DNA of 64,000 nucleotides from Amaurobius ferox. Taxonomy: Eukaryota; Arthropoda; Arachnida; Araneae; Amaurobiidae. Under the pieces are notes generated by a model. It was given only the letters and a program-made list of their open reading frames with translations, did not search any database and was not told the origin of the DNA. Shown here in pieces: positions 8,332-60,363 of this stretch. The stretch spans positions 124,388,149 through 124,452,148 of the forward strand of contig OX578140.1 of NCBI GenBank assembly GCA_951213105.1, written 5' to 3'. Position numbers and translations under genes: made by a program. Numbering within the stretch: position 1 is the stretch's first letter; the number at the start of each line of letters is the position of its first letter.

Positions 8332-9057
8332 TCTTTTGTAACAGATTGTATAAAATAATTTTTGTTTAATTCCTTGAATGGCATAATACGGCGTGATGAT
8401 CGCATGATACGGTGGTTATTATAATGATACGGTGCAACATTGCTAGCTTTAGCCAATATACAATACCGTTAAAAAAATAGGGCCGCGTCAGGCCCGGCTT
8501 TGAGTGTTTTCGGTTCTGGTCGATTTAATAAGTTTGCATTGAGGCATTGCTTATAATACTCTCAGAACCCGCCTAAAGGATCGTTTTGGAAACAAGGATG
8601 GCGCTCCCACTGCTGATAACAGCATCAAGTGATCACAGTGTGAATTAGTTCTGGCAAATTTGTTCTAATTTCATTTTAAAATGCTTCCATGTCTTTGTTT
8701 GAGTTAATTATGTTTGATTAGTATTCATATATATTGTTGGCAACTTGGTTGAATGATTCCAAAGTTCTTTTTGACGAAGTTTCGATGATTTCTTTTGAAT
8801 ATTTGCTGCCTTATGAAGACAACATGCTATTCTCATTTTTCATTTATTGACTTTACTAATTTCCGTGTATATTTTTTTGGTTTAATTATTTCAACATCCC
8901 GATTTGCGATGTTCCTTCCTCTTGATGTTATTTACAAGTTGTCATCTTCAATCTTACCGTGGATGGAGGGAGCGCAAAGGCTCATTTCTCGATGATTTTG
9001 AACTTGCTTTGCCCTGTTAATTTAAGGACAGTTGAAGAAAATAATGTGATATCCTTA
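7961..9057. other. Unassigned DNA
   Basis: An (AT)n microsatellite lies at about 8306-8330, and a GATACGGTG word is repeated near 8395-8435. No gene recognised. Confidence 0.5.
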
Positions 9058-10005
9058 TTACTTTCCTTATATACATAATGTATAAGGCAAGTATTGTGAC
9101 GGGATCGAAAATTCGAATTCGAGTTTTCGACGGGAGAGCGCGTTTCAAGCATCTCTGATCACGAATCAAACATTTTTAAAGTGATGTCTGTGTGTGTGTG
9201 TGTGTCTGTCAGTGAGTCTGTGGAGACAATAACTGACGAACGAATAGACCGATTCGAACGAAATTTGGTTCAAAAATCACAATCCGTAAACACTGGAAGT
9301 CTATTGTTACTTTCCTTATATACAAAATGTATAAGGAAAGTATTGTGACGGAGTCGAAAATTCGAATTCGAGTTTTCGACGGGAGAGCACGTTTCAAACA
9401 TCCCTGATCGCGAATCAAACATTTTTGAAGTGATGTCTGTGTGTGTGTGTCAGTGAGACTGTGGAGACGATAACTGACGAACGAATGGACAGATTCAAAC
9501 CAAATTCGGTACACAAATCACAATCAGTAAACACTGGAAGCCTATTGTTTTTATACGCAATCGAATGTTCAGAACCCCCCTAGATTTTCGAATGAAATTT
9601 TGAAAAAATCGTCAAAAAATCAAAACCACTAATAAAGTGACGCAAATAGACATTTCTTATGTAATTTTTCATTAGAAAACGATTGGCATAAATTTTAGAA
9701 CGCGAACATGAACCGTTCTCGAGATATTGTACATTTTTCAAAAAAATTATCAAAAAGTCATAAAATAAAAAAAAAATATTTCCTATTGAGAAACATACTC
9801 ACTTTTCATATGTAATACCATGCGATAAATTGGGTGACATCATTCTCGTGGATCTAGCTCGTTCCATTCATGGAAAAAGATACTTTGAGTAATGCTTTTG
9901 TATTTGAAAGCCAATAGTCATTTATCTGCTGTAAGAATAACTTATTTCTTAGTGCATAACACTTGGCGAGATTTCGGCGACGAATTTGGCGGAATGTCGC
10001 CAATA
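9058..10005 (-). mobile_element. Hairpin-ended element, family A, copy 1 (3' end duplicated)
   Basis: On the minus strand this is a 5'-truncated family A element. Its 3' end is present twice in tandem, at 9058-9306 and from 9307, each with the CTTTCCTTATA...TATAAGG palindrome, a CGAATTCGAGTTTTCGA block, a (GT)n tract and the shared CCAAATT motif. The period is about 248 bp. The interior follows the other family A copies until about 10005, where a (CT)n tract begins. No protein is encoded. Confidence 0.85.
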
Positions 10006-11892: not shown

Positions 11893-12170
11893 TTTGTTGG
11901 ATCCAGACCATCCGACGTACCTGGAGGTGTAAGATATCTGCTTGGACGGCCGGAACAGTGACACACAATTTAGACTGGAACCCAGTAGGGACTGCATCCA
12001 CACGGACCTTACCTTCCGTCCCCTACCACCAACCTATCGGAAGGATATACGAACCCACATATTTAATGTGTCCGTTCTCTGCGTGAACACGTGGACAGTT
12101 TGGGCAGAGCAGGAAATGGAATTCAGGTCTTTCGAGTGTAATTTCCGTGTCATAACCACTGGGCTGTCCC
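11893..12170 (-). mobile_element. tRNA-headed SINE (old copy)
   Basis: The minus strand reads tRNA-like head (GGGACAGCCCAGTGGTTA with a degraded B box), then the shared SINE body (GTGTTCACGC..., a CCTACCACCAACCT block on the plus strand) and tail ending in GTTGTTGGATCCAGACC. It is the most diverged full-length copy in the window. No clear target duplication remains. It sits inside the supposed intron between the candidate exons at 11631 and 12415. Confidence 0.8.
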
Positions 12171-17439: not shown

Positions 17440-19105
17440 CTTGAAAAATGTAAATTTTTGAATAATTCGCGTTTCACATTTATTCGGCAAATCGAATAAT
17501 TTGGTGTGCAGAATTCCCTAAAGAAGAAAATATTGATAAACTTAATTTGCCTATTTCTTCCTGTCAAACTATCTACCCGTACACCACATTAAAGTTATCC
17601 CGAAGCGTGCTATATTATTATTTCTCCTTTAAAATGTTTTTCTGTGAAGCACACCTATAAATAAACATTTTTAAAAAACTATGTTTGTCTTGGGTTTTTT
17701 ATCAGATGATTGGCTCATATACCAAATATCAAGCCTCTATCACATTTAAAGGGAAGAGTGCCTCATTTATTCGGAAAATCGAACATTTTAGTGTGCGGCA
17801 CCCCCCTACAATAGCAAATGTTGGAAAACTGAATGTGCACACTTTCTTCTTTTCTAACTATCTACAAGTATACCAAATTTGAAGTCTGTGTCTCATCACA
17901 AAGCATGCTTTTCCAGCATTTCACCTTTCGAATGTTTTTGTTGGGAGTACCCACCCCCTTAAATATACATTTTTGAAAATTTCTATTCTTCTTGTGATTT
18001 CTATCAGATGATTCGTCCATATACCAAATATCAAGCCTCTATCACGTTTTAAATGGGGCGTTTTTCCTTTATCCCGAAAATCGAACATTTTGGTGTGCTG
18101 CACCTCCTAAATTAGAAAATATTGGTAAACTGAAATTGTACACTTTGTTCTTTCCAAACTATCTACAATTACATAAATTTGATATCTCTATCTCATGCCG
18201 AAGCATGTTTTTTTATTAATTCACTTTTCGAACGTTTTTCTCTGGAGCACCCCTTTAAACGAACATTTTTGAAAAACTATATTCGTCTTGGGTGTTTTCG
18301 ACAAATGATTAGCCCATATACCAAATTTCAAGCCTCTATCAAATTTTAAAGGAGCCTTTTCTCATTTATTCGGTAAATCGAATATTTTGGTGTGGTGCAC
18401 CCCCTCAAGTAGAGGGGCCAACGGCCGTACCGTGCTGAAAACACCGGTTCTCGTTAGATCACCGAAGTGAAGCAGCATCGGGCGCGGTTAGTACTTGGTG
18501 GGTGACCACCTCGGAACGCCGCGTGCTGTTGGCCATCTCGGGTGCGGTATCCCCGTGGTTTGCGCGCTAGATTTGCACGCTGCCACAAATGCCGCCGTGT
18601 TCATGCGGAGTACGATCACGTTAAACATGTGGGTCCGTAAGTCCTTCCGAGAGGTTGGTGGTAGGGGAAGGAGGGTACGGTCCCTGTGGATGCCTCCCCC
18701 ACTGGGTTCCGGTCTAAATTGGGTAGGCACTTCCCGGCCGTCCATACAGTTACCTTACACCTTTCTGGTAGGTCGGACGGTCTGGGTCTCAACAACAACA
18801 ACCCCCTCAAGTAGAAAATATTGGAAATATCAAATTGCACACTTTCTTTTCTTTCGAACGATTTACCCATACACCAAATTTGAAGTCTCTATCTTATCAC
18901 AAAACATGCTTTCCTATCATTTCAATTTTCGAACGTTTTGATGTGGAGCACCCCCTATAGAGAACGTTTTCGAAAAATTCGATTTTTCCAGGGGGTTTTA
19001 TCGAACGACCGAACCATGTACCAAATTGCAAGTCTCTATCTATTCGGGAAGTGCCTAAAAAGCGTGACAGACAGACACTTGGCAATTAGTATATATAGAT
19101 AGATT
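17440..19105 (+). repeat. Tandem array, about 300-bp units, interrupted by a SINE
   Basis: Units recur with the same block order: TCGAA(C/T)ATTTTGGTGTG, AACTATCTAC, ACCAAATTTGAAGTC, GAAGCATGCTTTT, TTCGAACGTTTTTCTGTGGAGCACCCC, then CCATATACCAAAT(A/T)TCAAGCCTCTATC. The last block starts near 17719, 18021 and 18320, and again near 19019 (18617 once the SINE insertion is subtracted). The period is therefore 296-301 bp over about four and a half units. The array ends in a GACAGACAGACAC tract. No frame runs through it. Confidence 0.85.
18417..18800 (+). mobile_element. 5S-headed chimeric SINE, full length
   Basis: Order: 5S rRNA-like head 18417-18533 (117 nt, starts GCCAACGGCC, ends GTGCTGTTGGC, internal control region GGTTAGTACTTGG and GGGTGACC intact); a tRNA-like remnant with an A box but no B box (about 18540-18580); the shared body; the tail; and (AAC)4. 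Perfect 15-bp target copies ACCCCCTCAAGTAGA lie at 18399-18413 and 18801-18815. It splits a unit of the 300-bp array. The 5S type 1 promoter could drive Pol III transcription. Confidence 0.93.
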
Positions 19106-21941: not shown

Positions 21942-22513
21942 AGTGGTTGAAAAAATTAAAACACCATTTTCATCATCACATCATCGGATAGTTCGATAAA
22001 TGAACTTTCTCTCACACCATCTTTGGACAAAATCTGTCCAACAATTCCTTCAGTATTTATTTCTTATACGTCGAAATATGCTTGTTTTAAACTATCTGGT
22101 TATTTTTTTGCCGTATGCTAAAAGAAAAGGTGACCACAATTCTATAATCTGTTAAAAATATGGATGTATAATACCTTTGTATTCTAATAATTATTTTTGA
22201 TTACTCTATTTTCTGATTTTCTCTGAATTATCAAACAAAAGCATAACGATTGAAATTTTTACTCAGCTGTCGAACTTCTTTCTCTGGTTTGCCGATTGCT
22301 AATTTACACTGGGCGTTGTAAATTACGTCACAGCCTGTCCGTTGACATGGAAAGTAGTAACGTATTTATCGTAAAAACGTTGTGCGATTTTCAGGAATTC
22401 CGTGAAGACGGTAAAGAGAAAATGGTATATATTTGGGTAGGCGGATAAACAGCTGTGTACTTAACAATGGGAGTTTTATTTATCTGTTATTTAATTTTAA
22501 CGATTTAAAAAAA
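21942..22513. other. Unassigned DNA
   Basis: No feature recognised. Confidence 0.5.
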
Positions 22514-23396
22514 TCTGATGTGGGCAGCACATGGGTTTCCTTATATAATGCAATAAATTTACTACTTTTACAGTAAAAACAAAATAGATTATTTTTATAG
22601 TAGTTATTTATATTCTTTGCTAGATATTGAATTTTCGTCAATGAGTTCTCATTTTCCACGTCGTCATCATCAATGAGTCGTCATTGATTTAGCGTCATTT
22701 TTATCCATTTGGTAAGTTTTTCGTTACTTTAGCAACATTTAAAAAAGTCGCCAAGTTGGCGACATTCCACCAAATTCGTCGCCAAAATCTCGCCAAGCGT
22801 TATGGACGAAGAAATAAGTTATTCTTACAGCAGATATATGACTATTGGCGTTCAAATACAAAAGTATTACTCAAAGTATCTTTCTGCATGAATGGAACAA
22901 GCTAGATCCACGAGAATGATGTCACCAAATTTATCGCATGGTATTATATATGAAAAGTGAATATGTTTCTCAATAGGAAATATTTTTTTATTTTATATGA
23001 CGTTTTGATAATATTTTTGAAAAATGTGCAATATATCGAGAACGGTTCATGGTAGCGTTCTAAAATTTATGTCAATCGTTTTCTAATGAGAAATTACATA
23101 AGAAATGTCTACTTGCGTAACTGTATTTGCGGTTTTGATTTTCTGACGATTTTTTTCAAAATTCAATCGAAAATTTAGGGGGATTCTGGACATTCGATTG
23201 CGTATAAAAAACAATAGGCTTCCAGTGTTTATAGATTGTGATTTTTATACCAAATTTCGTTCGAATCGGTTTGTTCGTCCGTCAGTTATCGTCTCCACAG
23301 ACTCACTGACACACACACACACACACACACATACCAAGTCCTCTGGACGAGCCGGACGGCCTGGGGCTTTCACACACACACATACACACATACTGT

Positions 23397-23427
<31 letters not shown>

Positions 23428-23556
23428 ACATCACTTCAAAAATGCTTGATTTGTGATCAGGGATGCTTGAAACGTGGTCTCCCATCGAAAACTCGAATTC
23501 GAATTTTCGACCCCGTCACAATACTTTCCTTATACATTATGTATATAAGGAAAGTA
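22514..23556 (+). mobile_element. Hairpin-ended element, family A, copy 2 (full length)
   Basis: It starts TCTGATGTGGGCAGCACAT followed by a diverged CTTTCC word. Next come the GCCAAGTTGGCGACATTCC self-complementary block, the conserved interior (ACTATTGGCGTTC, GAATGATGTCACC, ATCGAGAACGGTTCATG), the ACCAAATTTCGTTCGAATCGG motif, a (CA)n tract and CGAATTCGAATTTTCGA. It ends in the hairpin CTTTCCTTATACAT/ATGTATATAAGGAAAG. It holds a SINE tail inside the (CA)n tract. No protein coding capacity. The layout resembles HINE (non-autonomous Helentron) elements. Confidence 0.85.
23333..23371 (+). mobile_element. SINE variant-tail fragment inside a (CA)n tract
   Basis: A CCTCTGGACGAGCCGGACGGCCTGGGG segment interrupts the (CA)n tract of the surrounding family A element. 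It matches the variant SINE tail seen at 61115-61172 (GTCCTCGGACGAGTCGGAGGGTCTGGGTC). Target copies cannot be seen because the target itself is repetitive. Confidence 0.75.
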
Positions 23557-24689
23557 ACATATCATTCTAATTTTTATCACTTTCCAATATAGTTGCAAAA
23601 TGTTTATGACTTTGTCATTCTATCTGTCACTCCGTTTGCACGATAACTGCCGGAGAAATGACTTTATCAAAATGACATTTCAGTATGTTGTTGAGACGGT
23701 CTATGGGACATACGGGAATGTAAATGAATAGTACTACCCAATTAGTTTTGGATTGAACCCGGGTTGAAAAAGTAAAATACACTGAACCCTACAGGGCCTA
23801 ATTATTCAACCCTTTTTTAAGCGAAGTTAAAATTCACAAATTGCTTTGAAAATTTTCGGAAATATTCAAATTATACCATAAATTATGTAAAAAAAAATTC
23901 AGCAAAATATGTTCGGTAGTTTTTTAAATAAAAAATAAAAGAATAATTACGCCTATATTATATGAAGAGATTACGTGACCCACTTCAAAATAAAATATGG
24001 CATCCAGCTTTTTTTCCCAGTGTAAAAATCGTGATTTTTAAAGTTTTTTTTACATTTGCATTTAGTGTTGCAGTAGTCCTAATCCGGCTTTAATTTTGTG
24101 TATTTTCTGTGCATATATATTCTGTGCGAATGCAATTACAATAATTTTTAGTTTATCAAACTTTGATTATTTCTACAGCAAAGCCTAGTTTTAATGGATG
24201 CAGAATGTAAACAAGTGATTGTAAGATGAGTTGTATAAGAACTGATGAAATTTTTTCACTCAAAGTTATTTAGCTCTAGAGTCTGGAATAAAAGTGATAT
24301 GAATGAATCATTCATTGCTTTTACATCTAGCCATACGATTTATATTCTAATGACGTCATTTGAATAAAGTTCATGTTTCCGATGAAGTTTTAAGTTTTCA
24401 AATATAATGATTTATTGTAGTACTGTGATAATTTAAAATATATCAGCGGTGAATGTATCGCATTTTAGAGATTTTTAAATAAAATTGAATTTCAGTTGGA
24501 AAGTATTTTATATCCAATGCTTTATGCATGATTGATTTCTTCTTGTTTAATATGGTATTATATTATCATTATCAAGATTATTCTGGAAAATGGCAAAGTT
24601 CTGATGCAGATTTGCTGAGATACCTTTTAATTTTTTTTATAGTTATGTACGGCTTTTGAACAGAATAAAATATCATCTATAATTAAAAT
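23557..24689. other. Unassigned DNA
   Basis: No gene recognised. The stretch 23600-23690 (TCTATCTGTCACTCCGTTTG...CGATAACTGCCGG) resembles the module next to CAGA tracts in other repeats here. Confidence 0.5.
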
Positions 24690-28789: not shown

Positions 28790-29150
28790 TCTTTTATCAG
28801 TTATTTTTCCACTGATGAAGGACATAATGATATCGAAAGCGGTCTGGTTGTAAATATTATATACGTCATTAATGGTGTTGCTGTTGAGACCCAGACCGTC
28901 CGACCTACCAGAAAGGTGTAAGGTAAATCCGTGCAAATCCAGCGCGCAAACCACCGGACTACCGCTTCCGAGATGTGCCAACAGCACGCGGTGTTCCCAG
29001 GTGGTCACCCACCCAAGTACTAATCGCGACCAATGCTGCATGACTTCAGAGATCTAACGCGAACCGGTGTTTTCAGAACGGTAGGGTCGTTGGCTCCGTC
29101 ATTAATGGTGTGTTTTATTAAAGACATTTTAATTAACCAACTTTGGTTGT
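28790..29150 (+). repeat. Single copy of the hammerhead-bearing repeat, split by a SINE
   Basis: It matches the right arm of the 24690-25560 inverted repeat: CTGATGA at 28812-28818, a stem II with one mismatch, GAAA at 28835-28838, TACGTCATTAATGG, and then TTTTATTAAAGAC with TTGGTTGT beyond the SINE. Here the CTGATGA and GAAA boxes are both intact. It is interrupted exactly after the GTC by the SINE at 28879-29096. Confidence 0.6.
28879..29096 (-). mobile_element. 5S-headed SINE lacking its body (miniature form)
   Basis: On the minus strand: 5S-like head (28977-29094), tRNA remnant without a B box, then a direct jump to the tail (TTACCTTACACC...) and a GTTGCTGTTG end. The whole central body is missing, giving about 218 bp. 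Perfect 15-bp target copies CGTCATTAATGGTGT lie at 28864-28878 and 29097-29111, so the deleted form itself was mobilised or the deletion followed insertion. Confidence 0.9.
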
Positions 29151-29303
29151 TTTTATTTCTAAAGTTTTTGCTGAATTAACGTGTTTTCCATGAACTTTTA
29201 TTGTTTAATTTATTTTATTATTATCAAGAAAATATTTATAATGAAATATATTTAATAATGTTTAAATATGTTAATTTATTAATAAGACACTGAACTAGTC
29301 TAT

Positions 29304-29687
29304 GCCAACGGCCCTACCATGCTGAAAACACCGGTTCTCGTTAGATCACCGAAGTCAAGTAGCATCGCGCGCGGTTAGTACTTGGGTGGGTGACCACCTG
29401 GGAACACCGCGTGCTGTTGGCAGATTTCGGGCGTGATAGCCCGGTGGTTTGCGCGCTTTATTTGCACGCTGCCACAACTGCCGCCGTGTCCATGCGGAGT
29501 ACGATCACGTTAAACATGTGGATCCGTAAGTCCTTCCGAGAGGTTGCTGGTAGGGGAAGGAGGGTACAGTCCCTGTGGATGCCTCCCCCACTGGGTTCCG
29601 GTCTAAATTGGGTGGCACTTCCGGGCCGGTTCCAAACGGTTACCTTACACCTTTCTGGTAGGTCAGACGGTCTGGGTCTCAACAACG
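29304..29687 (+). mobile_element. 5S-headed chimeric SINE, full length
   Basis: 5S-like head 29304-29421 (118 nt) with the internal control region intact (GGTTAGTACTTGGGTGGGTG). Then about 29428-29467 aligns with the tRNA head of the sister form (GATAGCCCGGTGGTTTGCGCG = A box, ATTTGCAC) but lacks about 27 nt that hold the B box. The body (CTGCCACAACTGCCGCC...), tail and AACAAC end follow. Ten-bp target copies GAACTAGTCT are at 29292-29301 and 29688-29697. It lies only 207 bp from the preceding copy, in opposite orientation. Confidence 0.93.
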
Positions 29688-29877
29688 GAACTAGTCTGAA
29701 ATCTATACATAATATTGTATTATTAAAACTACCTTCGAACTATTCAACGGGGTACGTCGATGAGATTAAATCTTAAAAGAAGCACGCGTTCGTTATAAGT
29801 TTGGGAACCACTGCTTTATATTTACGAATCACATTAACATTTAGTTTGATTTTTCGTGATTTGTAAAACCGTGTTAT

Positions 29878-30806
29878 TAATTTCCTTATATACATAATGT
29901 ATAAGGAAAGTATTGTGACGGAGTCGAAAATTCGAAATCGAGTTTTTGACGGGAGAGCACGTTTCAAGCATCCATGATCACGAATCAAACATTTTTAAAG
30001 TGATGTCTGTGTGTGTGTGTGAAAGTATGTGTGTGTGTGTGTGTGTGTCAGTGAGTCTGTGGAGACGATAACTGACGAACGAATGGCCCAATTCGAACGA
30101 AATTTGGTACAAAAATCACAATCCGTAAACACTAGAAGCCTATTGTTTTTATACGCAATCGAATGTTCGGAACTACCCTAAATCTTCGAGTAAAATTTTG
30201 AAAAAATCGTCAAAAATTCAAAACCGCTAATAAAGTTACGGAAATAGACATTTCTTATGCAATTTTTTATTAGAAAACGATTGGCATAAATTTTAGAACG
30301 TTAAAATGAACCGTTCTCGAGATATTGCATATTTTTCAAAAAAAATATCAAAAAGTCTTTATAGAATAAAAAAAAATATTTCCTGTTGAGATACATGTTC
30401 ATTTTTCATATGTAATACCATGCGATAAATTGGGTGACATCATTCTCGTGGATCTAGCTCGTTCCATTCATGAAAAAAGATACTTTGAGTAATACTTTTT
30501 TATTTGAACGCCAATAGTCATTTATCTGCTGTAAGAAAAACATATTTCTCCGTCCATAACGCTTGGAGACGAATTTGGTGGAATGTCGCCAACTTGGCGA
30601 TATTTTTAATTGTGTTGCCAAATTGACAAAAATCTCACCAAATGGATAAAAATGACCCTAAATCAATGAAAATGACGACTAATTGAAGAAAATTCAATAT
30701 CTTAGAAAGAATATAAGTATCTACTATAAGAATAACATTTCTTTAACTGTAAAAGTAGTAAATTCATTGCATTATATAAGGAAAGTCATGTGTTGCCCAC
30801 ATCAGA
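29878..30806 (-). mobile_element. Hairpin-ended element, family A, copy 3
   Basis: A full-length minus-strand copy: the 5' end TCTGATGTGGGCAACACATGACTTTCC is at about 30806 and the 3' palindrome (TTTCCTTATATACATAATGTATAAGG) at 29880. The (GT)n core is at 30007-30049. No target duplication is evident, as expected if the element belongs to Helitron-type rather than cut-and-paste elements. Confidence 0.85.
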
Positions 30807-31187
30807 TTTTTTATAATAACAATCTTCTTCAACTGAAGGTTTAGTTTCATTTACTCCCCTAAACCCTATCTGTGCTCAGAGAGAGACAGATTATCTTTAT
30901 TAGCTTTTGGCTTGTGTCATGTTATAGTACATTAGAAACTTCTTCTAAATTGTAGAGAAACAATTGCATGTGCAATTTTTAAAGAAATGGACAAATGATG
31001 AACAGCAATGAAAGAAAGAATCCCTAAAAGTTTAATGCTCAGCTTTGGCGACTGTGACAGAAGATCATTTGTATTTCACCAAAATAACGTCTGAACTTAT
31101 GCATCAATAAACACTTCAGATAATTTGGCTGGAAAATTATGATTCATTTTCCGAGTTTACAGGAGCTAGTCTATTTTAATACTGTGT
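30807..31187. other. Unassigned DNA
   Basis: No feature recognised. Confidence 0.5.
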
Positions 31188-32001: not shown

Positions 32002-32597
32002 CCGAATATTTGCAAACTAAGGGGAGGGCGTTGTTGTTGAGACCCAGACCGTCCGACTTACCAGAAAGGTGTAAGGTAACCGTTTGGACGGCCGGGAAGT
32101 GCCACCCAATTTAGACCGGAACCCAGTGGGGGAGGCATCCACAGGGACCGTACCCTCCTTCCCCTACCACCAACCTCTCGGAAGGATTTACGGACCCACA
32201 TGTTTAACGTGATTGTACTCCGCATGAACACGGCGGCAGTTGTGGCAGCGTGCGAATCCAGAGGGAAAACCACCGGGTTGCTGCGCCCGAGATGTGCCAA
32301 CAGCACGCGGTGTTCCCAGGTGGTCACCCACCCAAGTACTAACCGCGACCGATGCTGCTTGACTTCGATGATTTAACGAGAACCGGTGTTTGGTGTTTTC
32401 AGCACGGTAGGGCCGTTGGCTCTAGGGGGAGGACGTGTACTTTGCTTTTTCATAGGAGCACAGACAAATGATACGGCTTCCATAACAAATGAAACAAATT
32501 GATAATTTTTGCAATTATGTTCAATTATAGAAAATGAGCATTATTTAGAAAACATCTACAAGAATTAATTAGGTATAGCTGGGACATATTTAGAGCT
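31915..32597 (+). repeat. Family D repeat, 5' part (holds a SINE)
   Basis: It matches 45045-45300: AAAGATAGGAAA(T/G)GTATCAT, then (after a (TA)n tract and the SINE at 32030-32420) GTACTTT(G/A)CTTTTTCATAGGAGCACAG and AAATGAAACAAATTGA. Its continuation is at 35319-35900, so an insertion has split the copy. Confidence 0.7.
32030..32420 (-). mobile_element. 5S-headed chimeric SINE, full length
   Basis: On the minus strand: 5S-like head 32296-32420 (with a small duplication of TTTGGTG), B-box-less tRNA remnant, body, tail and (AAC)n. Imperfect target copies, GGGGAGGGCGT before and GGGGGAGGACGT after, flank it. It sits beside a (TA)n tract. Confidence 0.92.
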
Positions 32598-35318
32598 AGG
32601 GGGAAAACCACTTAAGTCAAAAACAAGGAAGTTGAGATATTAACGAATGAAAATAATGGCATTTTCAAGACATCGTTTTTTCAAATGTTTGGTTTTGGTT
32701 TTCAAAATACACATTTAATTTTTATGGTACGTACATTTATAAGCTAAATAAGCATGCACTGTATTGTAATTTTGGAAAATAAATTTTTCGGTAAATACTG
32801 ACTTAAGCGGTTATTCCCGAAGCAAGTTTGTGGCAAATATGTTGACTCATACAGCCATAAGTTATTATTCCTGACTTCAGTATTTATTCTTTGAACACAA
32901 TTATGATGGGTTTACAAATACAGACATAAGTAATTGTTCAATAAAACATCTGTCATGATGGAGCATTTAATTATGCATTCTAATTTCAAACTGTTATTAT
33001 TACTTAATGTTTTCTTAGGACTACTTTAAGTAAATATTTTGTGAAAAAGTATGAAAAACGTCGAAACGCTGTTTCAACTGATTTTTCAAAAAATTGTTTA
33101 AAAATAAAATTAAAAGTTAATGCACATATTTTTGGGAAATTAATTAGCTAATTTAAAATGTATATAAATATAAAGATATAAAATTGAAACTTAAACATCG
33201 TTTATAGTTCATCCGGATAAATTTCAATCAGATAGAAATAAATGTATGGTTCATTTAAAGTCGGAAGCATGGAATAGAATTGATCCATTTGGTGAAATTT
33301 TCGTTCATTTAGCAACATTTAAAAAGTCGACCAGTTGGCGATATTCCTCCAAATTCGTCGCAAAAATCTCTACAAGCGTTATGGATGCAGAATAAGTAAT
33401 TCTTATAACAGATAAATGACTATTGGCGTTCAAATACAAAAGTATTACTCAAAGTATCTTTTCTCATGAATGGAAAGAGCTAGATCCATGCGAATGATGT
33501 CACCAAATTTATAGCATGATAATACATATGATAAGTGAATATGTTTCTTAACAGTTAATATATATTTTTTAATTTATGGAATTTTATTGATAAATTTATT
33601 TGAAGAATGTTTAATATCACGAGAACAGCCATGCTAGCGTTCTAAAGTTTATGTCAATCGTTTTCTAAGGAAAAGTTACATAAGAAATGTCTATTTGCGT
33701 AACTTTATTAAAAGTTTTGATATTTTGATGATTTTTTTCAAAATTTCACTCGAAAATTTAGGGGAGTTCTGGGCATTCGATTGTGTTTAAAAACAATAGA
33801 CTTCCAGTATTTACGGACTGTAATTGTTGTACCGAATTTCATTCGAATCGCCCCATTAGTTCGTGAGATATCGTCTCCACAGACTCACTGACACACACAC
33901 ACACACACACTATCACAAACACACACACACACATACTATCACACACACACACTATCACAAACACACAGACACATACTATCACACACACACACACACACAG
34001 ACACTTTCTCACACACACATACATATACACACAGAGACAACACCTCAGAAATGTTCGATTCGTGACCAGGGATGCCTTGAAACGTGTTCTCCCGTCGAAA
34101 ATTCGAATTCGAATTTTCGACCCGTCACAATACTTTCCTTATGCATTATTGTATATAATTAAAGTAAAAAACAAATTGCTCCCTCTTCTAACAAACTAAT
34201 CAAACTACCACGAAGTCTCGTTTTAATTGCATCAGCGGTTTCAGAGGTAGCTAAGAACAGGTAATTTAACACCAGCATACATGCTTGCAGGCCACCGCAA
34301 TTAAACTACAGTATATTTCAATATTTGGGGATTTCGTTTAGCACATTCCTAGTGAGAGCGTGTAAAATTTGCACAATTAAAACGATCACAATCAGTGCAA
34401 TTTTCCCGTTAACTATACTTTATAAGCTATTGAGACCAACATCGTGCCACAGGGCGCGTGTAGGATACTTTTATTTATGTTATTTAACATAATTTAAAAC
34501 GTTTTACTATTAAACATTTTTTCTGCAGCCCCTTATTCTTTTGCAGAGATTTATTTCTGGCTGCAGCGCTGACAGCACAGAAACATTTTTATTTTTATGC
34601 ATATAATTTGCATTAAGAGCCTTATTTTCAAAACTCTAGTTTCTATTCTGGCTAAATCTTAAGATATATTTAATAAAATACAACATACCTCAAATATTTT
34701 TACTCTTGGGAATGGTTAATTTCAGCATTAGTTGTCCCCGTGACAACATACTTTTCTAAAATTGAGACACCAATCGCTGAAATAAAGTGTTATTTCAGCA
34801 CTATATGAATAAAACAGCTGCCTAACAATGATTAATTACCGGGCGAATGAATTCACAATCACCGGAAATAGGGGTCGAAAGGGGGGGGGGGGAGAACGTT
34901 GCGAGCGCCTCGAAATTTTACGAAATAAAAAAAAATATTCTGATATAGTTTCAATAAAGAACAAGACTGTATAAACTGTATGGAATGACAACATTTCTTC
35001 ATTTATGTTTTTTACACGCTAAAATCTGCACAAATAAATCGGAAAATAGTAACTTTTCTTGACTTATGTGCTTTTTCCCGAAATATATCTGTTCGAAAAT
35101 TAGATAAAAATAACTTTTTATAACTTATGTGGTTTTTCCTCACTGATTTTGGAGCAAAAGCTAGTAGGTTATTTATGGTGTTTCATTTTCTTGATATCTT
35201 AGAAGCCCAACAGATGTACGTACTTTTCCTACAGCACAGATCATACATTTCTTCAATAGAATATGTTATAAAAAAAATTGCAATTTTTGACTTATGTGGT
35301 TTTCCCCGCCACGACTAG
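32598..35318. mobile_element. Insertion X in family D with inverted ends; unknown class
   Basis: Family D continues uninterrupted at 45140-45340, but here 2.7 kb separates its halves. The left end is GGGGAAAACCACTTAAGTC and the right end reads, as complement, GGGGAAAACCACATAAGTC. Degenerate copies of the same word (TGACTTA(T/A)G(T/C)GGTTTTTCCC) recur near both ends: 32803, 32867, 35056, 35118. A CTAG lies beside each end. No transposase was recognised; a family A element and a poly-G tract (34879-34892) lie inside. Confidence 0.5.
33278..34167 (+). mobile_element. Hairpin-ended element, family A, copy 4 (5'-truncated)
   Basis: It begins within the family A sequence at ATCCATTTGGTGAAATTTTCG and runs through the conserved interior and a long interrupted (CA)n tract (33891-34035). 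It ends at the decayed hairpin CTTTCCTTATGCAT...TATATAATTAAAG. It is nested within insertion X, which is nested in family D. Confidence 0.82.
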
Positions 35319-39316: not shown

Positions 39317-39605
39317 TGTTGTTGTTGTTGAGACCCAGACCGTCCGACCTACCAGAAAGGTGTAAGGTAACTGTATGGACGGCCGGGAAGTGCCACCCAA
39401 TTTGGACCAGAACCCAGTGGGGGAGGCATCCACAGGGACCGTACCCTCCTTCCCCTACCACCAACCTCTCGGAAGGACTTACGGACCCACATGTTTAACG
39501 TGATCGTACTCCGCATGAACACGGCGGCATTTGTGGCAGCGTGCAAATCTAGCGCGCAAACCACGGGGATACCGCACCCGAGATGGCCAACAGCACGCGG
39601 CGTTC
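39317..39605 (-). mobile_element. SINE truncated inside its 5S head
   Basis: On the minus strand the copy starts only about 25 nt before the end of the 5S head (GGAACGCCGCGTGCTGTTGGC), then has the B-box-less tRNA remnant, the full body, the tail and (AAC)5. Perfect 15-bp target copies CACTACTTTAGTTGT are at 39302-39316 and 39606-39620. It proves that the 5S part was present in the source RNA, with the copy 5'-truncated during integration. Confidence 0.93.
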
Positions 39606-39624
39606 CACTACTTTAGTTGTAGAG

Positions 39625-41455: not shown

Positions 41456-41742
41456 TGTTGTTGTTGAGATCCAGACCGTCCGACCTACCAGAAAGGAGTA
41501 CGGTAACTGTTTGGACGGCCGGGAAGAACCACCCAATTTAGACCGGAACCCAGTGGGGGAGGCATCCACAAGGACCGTACCCCCCTTCCCCTACCACCAA
41601 CCTCTCGGAAGGACTTACGGACCCACATGTTTAACATGATCGTACTCCGCGTGAACACGGCAACAGTTTTGGCAGCGGAGAGAATCGAAACCGGGCCTAC
41701 CGAGTACAATTCCCGCGCGCTAATCACTGGATACCGCGCCCT
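41456..41742 (-). mobile_element. tRNA-headed SINE, full length
   Basis: On the minus strand: tRNA-like head starting AGGGCGCGGTATCCAGTGATTAG (A box) with B box GGTTTCGATTC and GCCAAAACTG after it, then the same body, tail and (AAC)n as the 5S-headed copies. There is no 5S segment. Perfect 15-bp target copies CAATTACAAAGGTGT lie at 41441-41455 and 41743-41757, so this is a complete insertion of the short form. Confidence 0.93.
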
Positions 41743-41757
41743 CAATTACAAAGGTGT

Positions 41758-43034
41758 GGAGCATTGTCTAATTAATCAAAATCGAGACAAGGGACGAACG
41801 AAACGCGTGTATGGAAGGCAAAGAATGCATGTCACATTGCATCGGTAGCTAAGACATATCCCACACAACTAGAGACTTCCACTGGACATCCAATAAAGCT
41901 CCTATAAATCTTACAACTGTCATATCTTGAGCAAGACGTCCTACGCAAGACAATCTTGCAATTTGATCCAATTAAACGCAATTTGAAGTGTTTTATGACT
42001 TCTTCTGGATCTTTCGTTGACCTAAAGAGAGCACCATTCGCCTTTCGTCAAGATGACACAGGGTCAAGATGACACAGGGTCAAGATGACACAGGGTCAAG
42101 ATGACACAGTGACGCCTGCAATGCTTGTCAATATACGCGATACCGGTTTTTTTCGAATTTATTACTATGTTGTTGCTGATGGAGGGCATTTTGACAACGT
42201 GTATAACATGGTGGGCATTTTGAGCAACGTATACATCTGCTGCATGTAAGTGATGTTTGATTCAACATTTCTGAATATAACAGTAACTTGCAAGTAACCA
42301 TATCACTTCAAATAAATGCTTTACGCAACAGATTTACTGCCCATTCCTACTGATTAGAAAGTGTTCTACATTTTCGTAATTGACTTTTTTCATCTATCTC
42401 GCTTTGTTGCTGAGTTTGTTATCCTAACTTTTTAAATTATCCGCTAGGGGCACTGCAATTACTTTTATTCGATTTAATGGTCACTTTACTGATAAATCTA
42501 AAGTTTACGCTCGTGGGCTTTCCTTACAAAGTTATTGAAGTGACTTAGAGACTTCCTATAATCTAAGTATATTTATCTGGTATCATTTGACGATTTTTTT
42601 TAGAAATTTTAAAGTTCTCTGCTGTGAATTTTAAATCCATATATTCCCAGATAAAATTCTTCAATAATGCTTGGCTTTATACCTAACATAGCCATGGCAG
42701 AAAGACATTTACTAACTGTTAGTTGCTAAGGGTAGCGGATTTCACTTTTAAAGATGTAAATCTAGAAAATCCCGCTTGACCGCCATTACTGTTTTTTATG
42801 TGTCTATACATCAGACATAGCTTGCTAACTGAACGGTGAGGTTACATATGCGAATTAAAGCATATCTTAAATAAAACTTTCCGTAAATGTTTATAAATAC
42901 GATAAAATGAAGTCCTTTTAAAATGTGACTGTCTGGCTTGAATCATCTTCAAATTAAAATTGTATACGCATACATAAATTCCTAAAGTATTTAAAAAAAG
43001 GTTCAAAAGTCTCATGTCAATGCATTTTTCTGTT
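41758..43034. other. Unassigned DNA
   Basis: Only the 16-bp tandem repeat at 42047-42110 was recognised. Confidence 0.5.
42047..42110. repeat. 16-bp tandem repeat, four copies
   Basis: The unit GTCAAGATGACACAGG starts at 42047, 42063, 42079 and 42095 with essentially no divergence. The odd non-AT-rich composition and near-identity suggest a recent expansion. Confidence 0.95.
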
Positions 43035-43962
43035 TTTACTTCCCTTGTATACATAATGTATAAGGAAAGTATTGTGACGGGGGAGAAAATTCGAATCAGA
43101 GTTTTCGACGGGAGAACACGTTTCAAGCAACCGTGATCACGAATCGAACATTTTTGAGGTGATGTTTGTGTGTGTGTGTGTGTCAAGTGAGTCTGTGGAG
43201 GCGATATCTCCCGAACGAATGGAGCGATTCGAATGAAATTTAGTACAAAAATCACAATCTATGAATACTGGAAGCCTATTGTTTTAAAACACAATCGAAT
43301 GTTTAGAACCCTCTAAATTTTCGAGTGAAATTTTGAAAAAATCATCAAAAAATCAAACTTTTAATAAAGTTACGCAAATAGACATTTCTTATGTAATTTT
43401 TCCTTAGAAAACGATTGATATAAACTTTAGAACGCTAGCATGAACTGTTTTCGAGATATTGCACATTTTCCAAATAAATTATAAAAAAAATCCCATAAAT
43501 TAAAAAAAAGTATTAACTGTTGAGAAACATGTTTACTTTCATATGTAATACCATATAATAAATTCGTTGACATCATTCTCGTGAATCTAACTCGTTCCAT
43601 TCATGAAAAAAGATACTTTGAGTAATACTTTTGCATTTGAACGCCAATAGTCATTTATCTGCTGTAAGAATAACTTATTTTTCTGGCCATAACGCTTGGC
43701 GAGATTATGACAACGAATTTAGCATAATGTAATTTAGCGTAATGCAACTTGGCGACATTTTTAATTGTTGCCAAATTAACGAAAATCTCGCCAAATTGAT
43801 TAATATGACGCTAAATCAATGAAACTGACGACTTATTGACGAAAATTCAATATCTTGGAAAGAATATAAATATCTACTATAAAAATAGTCTAATGATTTT
43901 TACTGTAAAAGTAGTAAATTCATTGCATTATATAAGGAAAGCCATGTGCTACCCACATAAGA
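43035..43962 (-). mobile_element. Hairpin-ended element, family A, copy 5
   Basis: Full-length minus-strand copy: 5' end TCTTATGTGGGTAGCACATGGCTTTCC near 43962, 3' palindrome near 43036, (GT)n core at 43149-43164. A family D repeat begins about 40 bp after it. Confidence 0.85.
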
Positions 43963-44004
43963 TTTTTATAATTGTAAAGAGGATGCTTTACTTTACTTTT
44001 GTTT

Positions 44005-46560: not shown

Positions 46561-47188
46561 AATAGGGAGTTCATATATATATATATATATATATATAGGA
46601 TATGCACACATATATATATGTATATATATATGCATATATATTGGATATGACATGAAACATAACACATTCCGACAAAGTAAAGGAATGTCCAATATTTTAT
46701 CAGCAAATCAATGATAGAACTCCCATCTGCCTGCTGACTTAATAAGCTTAGCTTTCGCTTTTCTTTGGAATTCTTGTCACTGGAGATATTGCACGCTAAT
46801 CCCTTTGATATTATTCTTTGGTCATGGACATGACTAATGAAGCAGTATCGCAATCCATTTACATATAACTCGGTAAACTTTGAGAATGTATAAATAATGT
46901 TTCTCTGTCTGAATGGGAAATTGAGTTTGAACTTTTGAAATTCAGGGATAGTCTGTGTTTTTCTCTGATTAGAGCAAGATGCATAATGTGCAGAGAAATA
47001 AATAATTTTGTATATGACTGTGGTGCGCAGTTTGAGAAAGAAATTCTAAATTAAAGGAGTTCTGGCGACTTTTAGATGTGAAACGCCTTAGAGCGCCGAG
47101 TAGAATAAATCTTAAAAGAAATGTGACTTGGATTAAATGGAAATATATGCAAGGTGACATCGCCTTGCTACGGATACGTAACAAAAAA
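46561..47188. other. Unassigned DNA with (AT)n tracts
   Basis: (AT)n microsatellite stretches at about 46576-46640. No gene recognised in the rest. Confidence 0.55.
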
Positions 47189-47968
47189 TCTGATGTGGGC
47201 AGCACATGACTTTCCTTATATAATGCAATAAATTTACTATTTTTACAGTACAAAAAATAGGTTTTTCTTATAGTAGATACTTATATTCTTTAAAAGATAT
47301 TGAATTTTCGACAATTGGTCTTCATTTTCATTGATTTAGCGTCATTTTAATCCATTTGGCGAGATTTTCGTTAATTTGACAACATTTCAAAAAGTCGCCA
47401 AGTTGGCGACATTCCGCCAAATTCGTCGCCAAAATCTCGCCAAGCTTTACTGACGGAGAAATAAGTTAATTTTATAACAGATAAATGACTATTGGCGTTC
47501 GAATACAAAAGTATTACTCGAAGTATCTTTTCTCATGAATGGAACGAGCTAAATCCACAAGAATGATGTCACCCAATTTATTGCATGGTATTACATATGA
47601 AAAGTGAACATGTTTCTCAATAGGAAATAAATATATTTTTTATTTTATATGACTTTTTGATAATTTTTTTTTAAAATGTGAAATATCTCGAGAACGGTTC
47701 ATGTTAGCGTTCTAAATTTTATGTGAATCGTTTTCTAATAAAAAATTACATAAGAAATGTCTATTTGCGTAACTTTATTAGCGGTTTTGATTTTTTGACG
47801 ATTTTTTCAAAATTTCACTCGAAAATTTAGGCGGGTTCTGCACATTCGATTACGTTTAAAAACAACAGGTTTCCAGTGTTTACGGATTGTGATTTTTGTA
47901 CCAAATTTTGTTCGAATCGGTCCATTCGTTCGTCAGTTATCGTCTCCACAGACCCACACACACATACA

Positions 47969-48014
<46 letters not shown>

Positions 48015-48146
48015 GACATCACCTCAAAAATGTTTTATTCGTGATCAGGGAGGCTTGAAACGTGCTCTCCCGTCGAAAACTCGAATTCGAATTTTCGACC
48101 CCATCACAATACTTTCCTTATACATTATGTATATAAGGAAAGTAAA
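47189..48146 (+). mobile_element. Hairpin-ended element, family A, copy 6 (best preserved)
   Basis: It starts TCTGATGTGGGCAGCACATG then ACTTTCCTTATATAATGC. The self-complementary GCCAAGTTGGCGAC...GTCGCC region, conserved interior, ACCAAATTTTGTTCGAATCGG motif, (CA)n (47957-48009), and CGAATTCGAATTTTCGACC follow. It ends CTTTCCTTATACATTATGTATATAAGGAAAGTAA. The 5' word CTTTCCTTATATAATG pairs with the 3' hairpin arm as an inverted repeat. No coding capacity. Confidence 0.88.
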
Positions 48147-48572
48147 AACCATTGTTATAATTAGAAGGCCTATGGTGAACTAACTGATCGACAAATGTGG
48201 TGATCTTGTCTGCGAATTTGACGAAATATCGCCAACTTGGTAACTTTTGTAGAGTTCCAAAAACTTCACGAATTTTAAGGGTTAGCTAAACAGTCAACAA
48301 GTTAAGTGTTCTGATTGCATGTACTTTTTAAGATGTATTATAAAGCAATACTGGTACAAAAACATAAAAAGATTAAATTTTAGATTTGCGATATCTGTTT
48401 CAACGTGTACGCTGTACGTCAGTATGCGCTTAACTTTTGCGCCGTCTCCACGCTCCAAATGACTGCAGACGTTACATATAAACGTTTCATCATCAGAAGC
48501 TTCGATTTTATTCCCCTGCAGACGAAATTAACTGCATTTTATTAATCTATTGAAAGTGTATAATTTAAAAAA
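48147..48572. other. Unassigned DNA with a family A scrap
   Basis: 48205-48240 (GAATTTGACGAAATATCGCCAACTTGG) resembles the family A self-complementary block. Nothing else recognised. Confidence 0.4.
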
Positions 48573-49487
48573 CCTGATGTGGGCAACACATGACTTTCCT
48601 TATATAATGCAATGAATTTACTACTTTTACAAAACAAAATTGGGTTTTTCTTATAGTAGATATTTATATTCTTTCCAAGATATTGAATTTTCGTCAATTA
48701 GTCGTCATTTTCATTGATTTAGAGTCATTTTTATCCATTTGGCGAGATTTTCGTTAATTTCGCAATATTTTAAAAAGTCGGCAAGTTGGCGACATTCTGC
48801 CAAATTTGTCGCCAAAATCCCTCCAAGCGTTATGGACGGAGAAATAAGTTATTCTTATAGCATATAAATGATTATTGGCGTTCAAATACAAAAGTATTAC
48901 TCAAAGTATCTTTTCTCATGAATGGAACGAGTTAGATCTACGAGAATGATGTCACCCAATTTATTGCACGATATTAAATATGAAAAGTGAACATATTTCT
49001 CAACAGTTAATATATTTTATTTAATTAATGGGATTTTTTGATAAATTTATTTACAAAATGTGCAATATCTCAAGAATTGTTCATTCTTGCATCTTAAAGC
49101 TTATGTCAATCGTTTTCTAAGGAAAAATTACATAAGAAATGTCTATTTGCGTAACTTTATTAAAGGTTTTGATTTTTTGATGATTTTTTCAAAATTTCAC
49201 TTGAAAATTTAAGGGGTTCCGAAAATTCGATTACGTTTAAAAACAATAGACTTCCAGTATTCATGGATTGTGATTTTTGTACCAAATTTCATTCGAATCG
49301 CTCCATTCGTTCGTGAGATATCGTCTCCACAATCTCCTCGACACACACTCTCACACAGACTTCACCTCAAAAATGTTTGATTCGTGATCAGGGATGCTTG
49401 AAACTTGCTCTTCCGTCGAAAACTCGAATTCCTATTTTCGTCCCCGTCACAATATTTTCCTTTTACATTATGTATATAAGGAAAGTA
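48573..49487 (+). mobile_element. Hairpin-ended element, family A, copy 7
   Basis: Full length: CCTGATGTGGGCAACACATGACTTTCC at the start and TTTTCCTTTTACATTATGTATATAAGGAAAGTAA at the end. Its (CA)n core is nearly gone (ACACACACTCTCACACAGAC). A mariner element inserted 8 bp beyond its 3' end. Confidence 0.85.
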
Positions 49488-49495
49488 AAAATATA

Positions 49496-51283
49496 CCGGG
49501 TGGACAGAATTAAAACGCCCCTACTCTGAGCTCTCTATACATCGAACTACTCTGTGTAAAGGCTCCAAAATTGTTGAACCTACTATTCAAGACTTGGGGA
49601 AAGGGATTACGCGAAATAAAAAAGAGTTCCAGAAACACCGATAGGTGGCGCTGTACAACAGAAAATATGCTGAAAATAGACACAAAATAATCACAAAAAA
49701 AAAAAAAAAACACATGCGATATGGAATTTTTTCTTTTTAATTTCTTTTGCTGATATAAAAAAAAGAAGATAAAAAAAGTGAAGAATCTTAAACTGTCGTT
49801 GTAACTGCAATTTCGCACTGTAAGCACAAAAATTTGTATAAACCCTTGGTTTGCACCTACTATGTTCTGGGCATAAAAGAGGATAAAACTGGGAAATTTT
49901 TATTCTTATCACCGATGGCTGTCACACTGCCAGAACGCGCTTTGCTTGTGAAGCTGTTTTATGAAAACAAAGGACATGCTGCAGCTGCACTTCGAGAGTT
50001 TCGTCGACTTAAGAATTTGCGCAAAGGACCATTACTTCCACAAGCTCTCTGGAGAATGATCGCTCAATTCGAGAAAACTGGACATCTTGGAATTCAGCTG
50101 GGTCGAGGAGGCAAATCGACTCGTTCAGATGTTGTTGACGATGTTGCCACCGCTATTGTTGAAGAATCAATGGAGAACGTTTTAGACTGAACGTTTTAGT
50201 GCACGTGGAGTGTCACGACACTTGGGTGTTCCCTACAGCACAGTGTGGAACGTATTGAGAAACATATAGTAAATTTGCATTTTTTCCCGTACAAAATTAG
50301 CCACAATCACCACTTGCTGACCATCGACAGGGAGAAACGACTGACCTTTGTATTGACATTTCTGGCTAGAGTTGAAGTGGATGCATCGTAGCCATGGCAG
50401 ATTCTATGGAGCGATGAGGCGCATTTCCATCTAAGTGGAACAGTTAACACCCATAACTGTCGCATTTGGGACACGGAAAACCCTCGTACCTTCCAAGAGA
50501 TTCCACTTCACTCACCGAATGTTAAGTCTGGTGTGGATTCACAGCCACATTCATTCTTGGACCTTTCTTTTTCGAAGACGCTACTCCCAATGGCCCTGTG
50601 ACATGCACCGTGACGGCCAGGAGGTACAAAAACATGCTCGAAAAGTTTGTTGTACCGCAAACGCAACAGCACCAACATCTTGATTCAATTACCTTTATGC
50701 AAGATGGAGCGCCTCCACACACTGGACTCTGTGTAAAGCAGTTTCTTCGGCAACATTTTACTAATGGTAAAGTAATTAGTCGTGCGTTTCCGACAACCTG
50801 GCCATCTCGTTCTCCAGATCTTAATCCCTGTGATTTTTGGCTGTAGGGATACTTAAAAAGTCTTGTTTATCTAGGACGTCTGGTAACCTTGGCAGATTTG
50901 AAAGACAGTATCACTCTGCATGTGAGAAGCATCTCAATCTACCAATTACGATCCGCAGTTGAACAGGCTGTCCACAGACTGCAGATTTTACATCTTGAAG
51001 AAGGGAACCATATTGAGCAGCATTCCCTGCATCGATAAGGTCCTTGTGATATGAATGTTTGGTACGTTCGATTAAAATGTGTTACAAATGTGTATTTTGT
51101 GTCTTTTCAGCATATTTTCCGTTGTACAGCGCCACCTATTGGTGTTTCTGTAACTAATTTTCTTTCACGTGAACCCTTTCCCCATGTCTTGAATAGCATG
51201 TTCAACAATTTTGGAGCCTTTACACTGAGTAGTTCGATCTATAGAGAGCTCAGAGTAGGGGTGTTTTAATTCTGACCATCCGG
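49496..51283 (+). mobile_element. Mariner-type transposon with long TIRs, element 1
   Basis: TA dinucleotides (49494-49495, 51284-51285) flank the ends CCGGGTGGACAGAATTAAAAC and its inverted, slightly diverged partner. The TIRs extend about 180-200 bp through GCTCTCTATA, CGAACTACTC and CAAAATTGTTGAAC. The element is 1.8 kb and holds one transposase gene, now broken. Confidence 0.92.
49915..51038 (+). pseudogene. Mariner-superfamily transposase, broken (element 1)
   Basis: The start MAVTLPERALLVKLFYENKG opens the N-terminal helix-turn-helix region found in this family, followed by RRLKNLRKGPL. The DDE domain shows WSDEAHFHLSG, QDGAPPHTG and SRSPDLNPCDFWL. I count 37 residues between the second and third Asp. 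The ATG at 49915 is chosen by alignment with element 2. Breaks: a stop at 50188-50190, a TAG before PWQILWSDE, a TAG replacing the Trp after CDFWL, and at least two frameshifts. It would have catalysed cut-and-paste transposition; it cannot now. Confidence 0.9.
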
Positions 51284-55179: not shown

Positions 55180-55478
55180 ATAACTTTTATGAATAAAATT
55201 CTTCAAATTTAAGCTTTTCAAATGTAAGCATGAAAATTGCGAACATTTTGTAATTATGTTAAAATGTTAAATTGTAATATATATTAAATCTTCATTAGGT
55301 AAAATGCACTTTGTACGAAGGATAAGCAAAACTTGAGCAGCGTATATAAGCACAAATAACATAATAATGCAGCACACAGCTTTATTGAAGACCAGCCGCC
55401 TTTGGCGACCAGCCTGTTCGCTACCCTTGAAAATTCTGACCGTGGCAAATTCTAACCGTGGCACACTCGCTGGCGGGA
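55180..55478. other. Unassigned DNA
   Basis: No feature recognised; a 65-codon minus-strand frame (55267-55464) has no known domain. Confidence 0.5.
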
Positions 55479-55479
55479 C

Positions 55480-56210
55480 CTACCTGTAAGGTGTAAGGTA
55501 ACTGTTTGGACGGCCAGGAAGTGCCACCCAATTTAGACCGGAACTCAGTGGGGGAGGCATCTACAGGGACCGTACCCTCCTTCCCCTACCCCCAACCTTT
55601 CGGAAGGACTTACGGTCCCACATGTTTAACGTGATCGTACTCCGCCTGAACACAGCGGCAGTTTTGGCAGTGGCGGGAATCGAACCCGGACCTACCGAGT
55701 GCAATTCCCGCGCGCTAACCACTGGGCTACCGCGCCCTCCGCGACAATCTCCATAACCTTCTTTTTATTCATCCAATTTAGACCGGAACCCAGTGGGAGA
55801 GTCATCCACAGGGACCGTACCCTCCTTCCCCTACCACCAACCTCCCGGAAGGACTTACGTACCCACATGTTTAACGTGATCGTACTCCGCGTGAAAATGG
55901 CAGCAGTTTTGGCAGTCGAGGGAATCTAACCTGGGCCTACCGAGTGCAATTCCCGCACGCTAACCACTGGGCTACCGTGCCCTCCGCGACAATCTCCATA
56001 ACTTTCTTTTTATTCACCCAGTTTGGACTGGAACCCAGTGGGGGAGGCATCCACAGAGACCGTACCCTCCTTCCCCTGCCACCAACCTCTCTGAAGGACT
56101 TATCGACTCATATGTTTAACGTGATCGTACTCCGCGTCAGTGGCGGGAATCGAACCCAGGCCTACCGAGTGCAATTCTCGCGCGCTAACTTCCCGCGCGC
56201 TAATTTAAAT
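55480..56210 (-). mobile_element. Tandem array of tRNA-headed SINEs (three heads, one tail)
   Basis: On the minus strand three SINE copies follow each other, at about 55480-55737, 55776-55983 and 56019-56200. Only the first carries the tail; the others join head to body through a shared linker (CGCGACAATCTCCATAAC(C/T)TTCTTTTTATTCA). The linker starts at 55738 and 55984, giving a period of 246 bp. The first head is the best in the window: A box TAGCCCAGTGGTTAGCGCG and B box GGTTCGATTCCCGCC. The linker-flanked repeat points to tandem duplication rather than separate insertions. Confidence 0.88.
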
Positions 56211-58934: not shown

Positions 58935-59106
58935 AGGGCGCGGTAGCCCAGTCGCTAGCGCACGGGAGTTGTACTTGATAGGTCCGGGTTCGATTCCCTC
59001 AGCTGCCAAAACTGCCGCCGTGTTCACGCGGAGTACGTTCACTCTAAACATGTGGGTCCGTAAGTCCTTCCGAGAGGTTGGTAGTAAGGGAAAGAGGGTA
59101 TGGTCT
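58935..59106 (+). mobile_element. tRNA-headed SINE, 3'-truncated
   Basis: Head with A box TAGCCCAGTCGCTAGCGCA and B box GGTTCGATTCCCT, then GCCAAAACTGCCGCCGTGTTCACGC and the body up to GGAAAGAGGGTATGG, where similarity stops. The tail is missing, so the copy was cut by later rearrangement rather than by normal 5' truncation. Confidence 0.88.
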
Positions 59107-60291: not shown

Positions 60292-60363
60292 TGTTGTTGT
60301 TGTTGAGATCCAGACCGTTCGACCTACCAGAAAGGTGTAAGGTAACTGTTTGGACGGCTGGGA
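60292..60363 (-). mobile_element. 5'-truncated SINE, tail only
   Basis: The tail from CCCAGCCGTCCAAACAGTTACC to (AAC)n on the minus strand. Target copies CCATAGGGTAGGT (60279-60291) and CCATGGGGTAGGT (60364-60376) differ at one base. Confidence 0.88.

Follow-up and report, generated by a model that had tools for sequence, protein, structure and literature searches.

A 5S-headed SINE with a tRNA-type remnant behind its head, and its tRNA-headed relatives, in the spider Amaurobius ferox

The replacement of one SINE head by another is thought to proceed via template switching and, to our knowledge, it is mostly the end products that have been described. According to the available excerpt, HaSE3 of Helicoverpa armigera is a 5S-headed chimera sharing its body and tail with the tRNA-headed HaSE1, the tail of which is related to the RTE-type LINE HaRTE1.1, and an origin of HaSE3 by template switching has been proposed (PMC3272025). 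AmnSINE1 is described as composed of a 5S-derived promoter, a tRNA-derived region, a Deu domain and a tail (PMC3234267), and the DeuSINEs of vertebrates are reported to include both 5S-headed and tRNA-headed members (PMC3747384, excerpt). Similarly, excerpts on PxSE4, PxSE5 and related lepidopteran SINE3 mention heads that derive from 5S and carry boxes A, IE and C (PMC8010984, PMC10886601), MEG-TR of fruit bats is cited as a tRNA and 5S SINE in an excerpt of PMC9191728, and SINE1-1_EBu of hagfish is presented as an older tRNA-derived SINE bearing the head of another polymerase III RNA, 7SL RNA (PMC7245038, excerpt). Among the matches listed in the open-licence literature, Helicoverpa provides the only insect 5S/tRNA SINE chimera (PMC3272025, as excerpted), and no paper in that literature joins SINE3, spider and retrotransposon.

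Here, we describe 5S-headed and tRNA-headed SINE copies lying together in one 64-kb stretch of Amaurobius ferox DNA, hereafter the window. A preliminary description of this locus had hinted at novelty; this was too strong, as HaSE3 (PMC3272025) and AmnSINE1 (PMC3234267), in the form in which their excerpts present them, are published parallels.

SINE copies in the window

The copy set consists of twelve aligned pieces, labelled A to L (Table 1). Rfam finds four full-length 5S matches in the window (model positions 1-120), all at SINE heads, with scores of 80.9-100.6 bits (E 1.3e-15 to 7.9e-21) against a gathering threshold of 38. These four heads, 5S rRNA-derived and with type 1 promoter elements, are thus those of SINE3 elements; the box C region is intact in copies A, C and K, and one G short in copy B. 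A full 5S-like segment had been ascribed to five copies at first, which holds for four of them but not for copy D, where only the end of the 5S is left. As placed by Rfam, the 5S part ends at the end of the mature 5S RNA. Copy C carries a 7-nt duplication inside its 5S part and a TTTT inside its tRNA remnant. In copy K, the body is missing between tRNA remnant and tail, with the target-site duplication intact; this copy could be a retroposed short form or the result of a later deletion.

Table 1. Positions of the SINE copies, of their parts and of other repeats in the window
Feature	Position	Strand	Evidence
Rfam 5S match	18417-18534	+	
Rfam 5S match (copy A head)	29304-29422	+	RF00001, 100.0 bits, E 1.2e-20
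Rfam 5S match	32420-32295	-	
Rfam 5S match	29094-28976	-	
Copy A, full-length 5S-headed SINE	29304..29687	+	Rfam, alignment, target-site duplication
Copy A, 5S rRNA-derived head, 118 nt from GCC to GGC	29304..29421	+	Rfam RF00001
Copy A, 7-nt linker	29422-29428	+	alignment
Copy A, degenerate 39-nt tRNA 5' half with A-box remnant	29429-29467	+	alignment
Copy A, body and tail, common to tRNA-headed copies	29468..29687	+	alignment
Copy B, full-length 5S-headed SINE, 5S from 18417	18414..18800	+	Rfam, alignment
Copy C, full-length 5S-headed SINE, imperfect target-site duplication	32028..32421	-	Rfam, alignment
Copy K, 5S-headed SINE with tRNA 5' half and tail, body deleted	28879..29096	-	Rfam, alignment
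Copy D, 5S-headed SINE, 5'-truncated within 5S, 21 nt of 5S left	39317..39606	-	alignment
Copy E, tRNA-headed SINE with target-site duplication	41456..41742	-	alignment
Copies F, G, H, tRNA-headed SINE pieces in 245-bp tandem array	55477..56190	-	alignment
Copy I, old tRNA-headed SINE	11894..12165	-	alignment, body identity
Copy J, tRNA-headed SINE without 3' part	58935..59106	+	alignment
Copy L, 5'-truncated tail piece	60292..60363	-	alignment, target-site duplication
0.95-kb repeat copies	9055-10003, 22508-23557, 29872-30817, 33280-34173, 43031-43976, 47183-48149, 48566-49491		

The tRNA-headed set (E, F/G/H, I and J) amounts to six pieces at four independent loci. Its heads were recognised by A- and B-box motifs; in particular, the B box was identified by the consensus-type motif GGTTCGATTCC, which is intact in F, H and J and altered in E, G and I. 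ARAGORN detects no tRNA in the whole window nor, at default settings, in five tRNA-headed copies, and the tRNA-type head shows no cloverleaf fold, so that its identity as a tRNA rests on the two boxes and their spacing. Judged from sequence, polymerase III-derived heads are found in both forms, as 5S heads or as A and B boxes. Copy E starts 9-10 nt upstream of the A box, a start that would be expected of a tRNA-type promoter. At 55525-56137, tRNA-headed SINE pieces and their flank make up a tandem array with a unit of 245 bp (2.5 copies, 89% matches), i.e. a SINE converted to a short tandem repeat. The tail of copy L is in the state GGATCTC, as are those of the tRNA-headed copies E and I. Two adjoining tail pieces of the same SINE (positions 1-42, cut by the window edge, and 66-104, minus strand) show the GGGT state of the 5S copies.

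Target-site duplications of 10-15 bp are present in seven of the ten copies examined (A, B, C, D, E, K and L; G and H are outside this count), with one mismatch each in C and L, and none is found at F, I and J. They read GAACTAGTCT for copy A (29292-29301 and 29688-29697), ACCCCCTCAAGTAGA for copy B (15 bp, 18399-18413 and 18801-18815), ACACCATTAATGACG for copy K and ACACCTTTGTAATTG for copy E, and measure 14-15 bp in copy D. The 5' truncation seen in D and L is frequent in LINE-driven insertions. Copy B sits within one unit of a 302-bp tandem array (17469-19040); when the element is taken out and its flanks are brought together, the resulting sequence aligns across the junction to two adjacent units (75.5% and 76.2% identity), and these units are empty-site-like. 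In each of the four full-length 5S copies, the 5S part starts at its nucleotide 1, 0-3 bases past the target-site duplication. This was thus, most likely, also the start of the RNA template, as would be expected of transcription from the 5S promoter.

Exact body and tail patterns gave no match in viral-contig and genome-contig collections, which contain few animal sequences and say little on the spread of the family. As a protein query, the open frame of copy B returned six candidates, none of them at E 10. No reverse transcriptase was found by Pfam in 73 of the 105 open frames (at least 75 aa); HTH_Tnp_Tc3_2 was found in two, DDE_3 in one, along with three weak single matches (E up to 0.01). 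The 32 frames outside this set are those that fall within SINE copies, a 0.95-kb repeat or the transposase region and those that were scanned separately, the separate scan of five proteins giving one DDE_3 match below cut-off. Mos-like transposase fragments are located at 49792-50190 and 53341-54471; within the latter, 53341-53841 has one protein match, to a DUF4817 protein of Trichonephila clavipes (50% identity), and 53935-54471 a weak DDE_3 match. The repeat of about 0.95 kb forms a family of seven or more copies, roughly 80-91% identical and unrelated to the SINE.

Linker, tRNA remnant and missing B-box segment

The 5S copies have in common an architecture composed of the 5S part, a linker, a 39-nt tRNA 5' half, GCTGCC and the body. 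The linker measures 6-7 nt and reads ACATCTC in C and K, CATCTC in B and D, and AGATTTC in A. As initially proposed, the segment following the 5S matches the 5' half of the tRNA-type head, without any gap, with scores of 38 in A, 43 in B, 43 in D and 45 in K. The maxima reached by 2000 mononucleotide shuffles per copy are 22, 28, 25 and 24, respectively, and the best tRNA-half score elsewhere in the window is 22. A chance match is excluded by these shuffles for A, B, D and K, but the same comparison with random sequence, which had been suggested as a check, goes the other way for copy C, whose score of 23 lies below its shuffle maximum of 26. The remnant of copy C nevertheless aligns in register with the tRNA half (28/39), and its reading as such a half would be argued from position and register alone.

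The tRNA half ends with TTGCAC in copies A, B and D and with TCGCAC in copy C, and GCTGCC follows it immediately in all four; tRNA-headed copies have a 27-nt stretch, carrying the B box, between the two. In copy A, the B-box segment is accordingly absent downstream of 29467. The absence of about 27 nt carrying the B box had been reported in the preliminary description, which also named a shared breakpoint as a test of a single event, and both are borne out: the gap is an identical 27 nt, with one common junction, in the four scorable 5S copies (A, B, C and D), copy K being not scorable because the right-hand side was removed with its own body deletion. Within the retained half, the A-box position at which A is conserved carries G or C in all five 5S copies, and A in all five readable tRNA-headed copies. 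In a tRNA numbering done by eye, the retained head corresponds approximately to positions 1-38 together with the 3' strand of the acceptor; positions 39-66, including the variable loop and T arm, are approximately those that are missing, and the place of the anticodon would read TGC. As the deleted piece holds a small hairpin (-5.3 kcal/mol), it could have been skipped by reverse transcriptase; such a skip and an ordinary deletion are equally possible. The 5S copies are thus chimeras, in which a 5S part is followed by a tRNA-derived region and then by the body of tRNA-headed SINEs, copy C being a weak case.

Divergence of the two forms

Body and tail are common to 5S- and tRNA-headed copies, as stated in the preliminary description and confirmed by alignment. 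The body is 94.8-99.1% identical among 5S copies (6 pairs), and 83.5-91.8% among tRNA-headed copies without I (10 pairs); copy I is 77.2-81.0% identical to the nine others. In a tree of 10 copies rooted on I, the four body-bearing 5S copies group together in a single clade (SH-aLRT 90.4, bootstrap 88), and branching among tRNA-headed copies is poorly resolved. Three body columns also separate the two forms: column 7 is C in 4/4 5S copies and A in the 5/5 tRNA-headed copies that cover it; column 25 is T in 4/4 5S copies, C in 5/6 tRNA-headed ones and G in F; column 210 is G in 4/4 5S copies and A in 2/2 tRNA-headed ones (E and I). Copy I has the tRNA-type state at all three. The body identities, the clade and the states of copy I together indicate that, as far as the window shows, the 5S form is derived and younger, in keeping with the single origin and younger age that had been set as tests at the outset.

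The remnant does not change at the pace of the rest of the element. In the three 5S copies A, B and C, on which the whole rate contrast is built, 15 of 39 remnant columns are changed versus 12 of 211 body columns (ratio 6.8, Fisher 2.7e-7), and 8 of 22 versus 7 of 178 when CpG columns are left out (Fisher 2.3e-5); 10 of 117 columns are changed in their 5S part. With K added, for the remnant alone, the count is 18/39. In the tRNA-headed copies E, F and G, the corresponding head segment has 5 changes in 38 columns and the body 20 in 147 (ratio 0.97); with J, the counts are 9/38 and 22/105 (ratio 1.13), and the ratio ranges from 0.5 to 1.6 over seven copy sets. The interaction test gives a p value of 0.011 with E, F and G, of 0.061 when J is added, and of 0.003-0.12 over the seven sets. 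D, as a near-copy of B (99.1% identical in body), K (no body), H (incomplete) and I (too old) were omitted from these counts. Outside CpG, A, B and C differ pairwise by 2.3-3.4% over the 5S part and by 2.2-2.8% over the body, against 13.8-26.7% over linker and remnant together (5.1-6.0%, 2.8-4.3% and 20.0-28.3%, respectively, with CpG); the 5S part is higher in pairs with K (6.8-8.0% outside CpG). The remnant therefore changes faster in 5S copies only, consistently in direction and with moderate strength.

Copies of one master are expected to differ evenly along their length outside CpG, and the excess in the remnant thus probably arose in the source lineages. There, the remnant was probably free to change while the 5S part and the body were kept. 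In copy C, the TTTT inside the remnant is a possible polymerase III stop, and this copy may be dead on that account.

Origin of the chimera and known parallels

The explanation that we favour, and regard as fairly probable, is that a 5S-headed type 1 lineage arose a single time from a tRNA-headed type 2 SINE, through a template switch, takeover by the 5S promoter and decay of the old head. A LINE reverse transcriptase, copying the RNA of a tRNA-type SINE, would have switched at the 5' end of its template to the 3' end of 5S rRNA, and would then have copied the whole mature 5S rRNA. Such a switch fits a complete 5S part that lies 6-7 nt ahead of the start of the tRNA head. The insertion ends suggest that the chimera would have been transcribed from 5S nucleotide 1 via the internal 5S promoter. 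The loss of the 27-nt B-box segment would be one event, occurring either before or after the fusion. From the rates, the surviving tRNA 5' half could be a spacer without promoter function, changing freely, with 5S head and body retained. Against this explanation, template switching does not account for the 6-7 nt linker, copy C has a weak remnant score and a TTTT, and the box C region of copy B lacks one G.

The promoter swap envisaged in the preliminary description fits the insertion ends at 5S nucleotide 1 (4/4) and the fast change of the remnant in 5S copies only, but for its other part, in which 5S would make up for a B box lost beforehand, no intermediate is found in the window. In that order of events, which we consider rather doubtful, deletion of the B box would have silenced a tRNA-headed copy later rescued by fusion to 5S; the B box is indeed absent from all four scorable 5S copies and the window shows no 5S copy whose tRNA head is intact, but an RNA without B box would be a rare template, and none of the six tRNA-headed pieces in the window, a small sample, shows the 27-nt gap.

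The main rival of template switching is a fusion at the DNA level, in which a tRNA-type SINE would have landed behind a 5S gene or pseudogene and a read-through RNA would have been copied. The linker, which fits neither 5S nor tRNA head, would then be 5S 3' flank. This scenario is unlikely, as it needs an insertion a few bases from the 5S 3' end and ahead of the terminator, and as the 5S part stops at the mature RNA end, as an RNA template would. As to the reverse direction, with an ancestral 5S form from which tRNA-headed copies would have arisen by acquiring the 27 nt and losing the 5S part, it is a logical possibility for which nothing further was found, and it is highly improbable given that the head, once these 27 nt are included, is complete, its A and B boxes being spaced as in a tRNA, and that the most diverged copy, I, is tRNA-headed with tRNA-type body states.

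Coming back to the template switch and 5S takeover, we lean towards seeing in these copies a promoter exchange within one genome, with both forms present, the old type 2 remnant still legible and the 5S promoter kept. If true, the family would suit tests of the order of events and of the value of type 1 versus type 2 promoters, which are reported to differ in their sensitivity to DNA methylation (Besser 1990, as cited in an excerpt of PMC8136502). Parent type and chimera are found here with one body in one genome, with a common junction in the scorable copies and an accelerated remnant of the old promoter. The order of loss and gain, as well as the takeover by 5S, thus become testable by counting intermediates genome-wide. 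MEG-TR, whose head, a tRNA/5S hybrid, may be likened to the chimeric head found here, is mammalian, unlike the Amaurobius ferox SINE.

Compared by description, the nearest published parallel in an insect is HaSE1/HaSE3, where, as here, one genome contains both a 5S-headed and a tRNA-headed SINE with a common body and tail; unlike the present copies, HaSE3 has no tRNA remnant behind 5S mentioned in the available excerpt (PMC3272025). The same holds for PxSE4 and PxSE5, which are alike in their 5S-derived head and for which the excerpts mention no tRNA remnant. SINE1-1_EBu, as excerpted, follows the same logic with a 7SL RNA head in place of 5S. The nearest layout is that of AmnSINE1, which, from its excerpted description, also combines a 5S-derived part, a tRNA-derived region, a body and a tail. 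The Amaurobius ferox chimera is therefore of a known kind, represented by HaSE1/HaSE3 and AmnSINE1, and its history is unusually legible.
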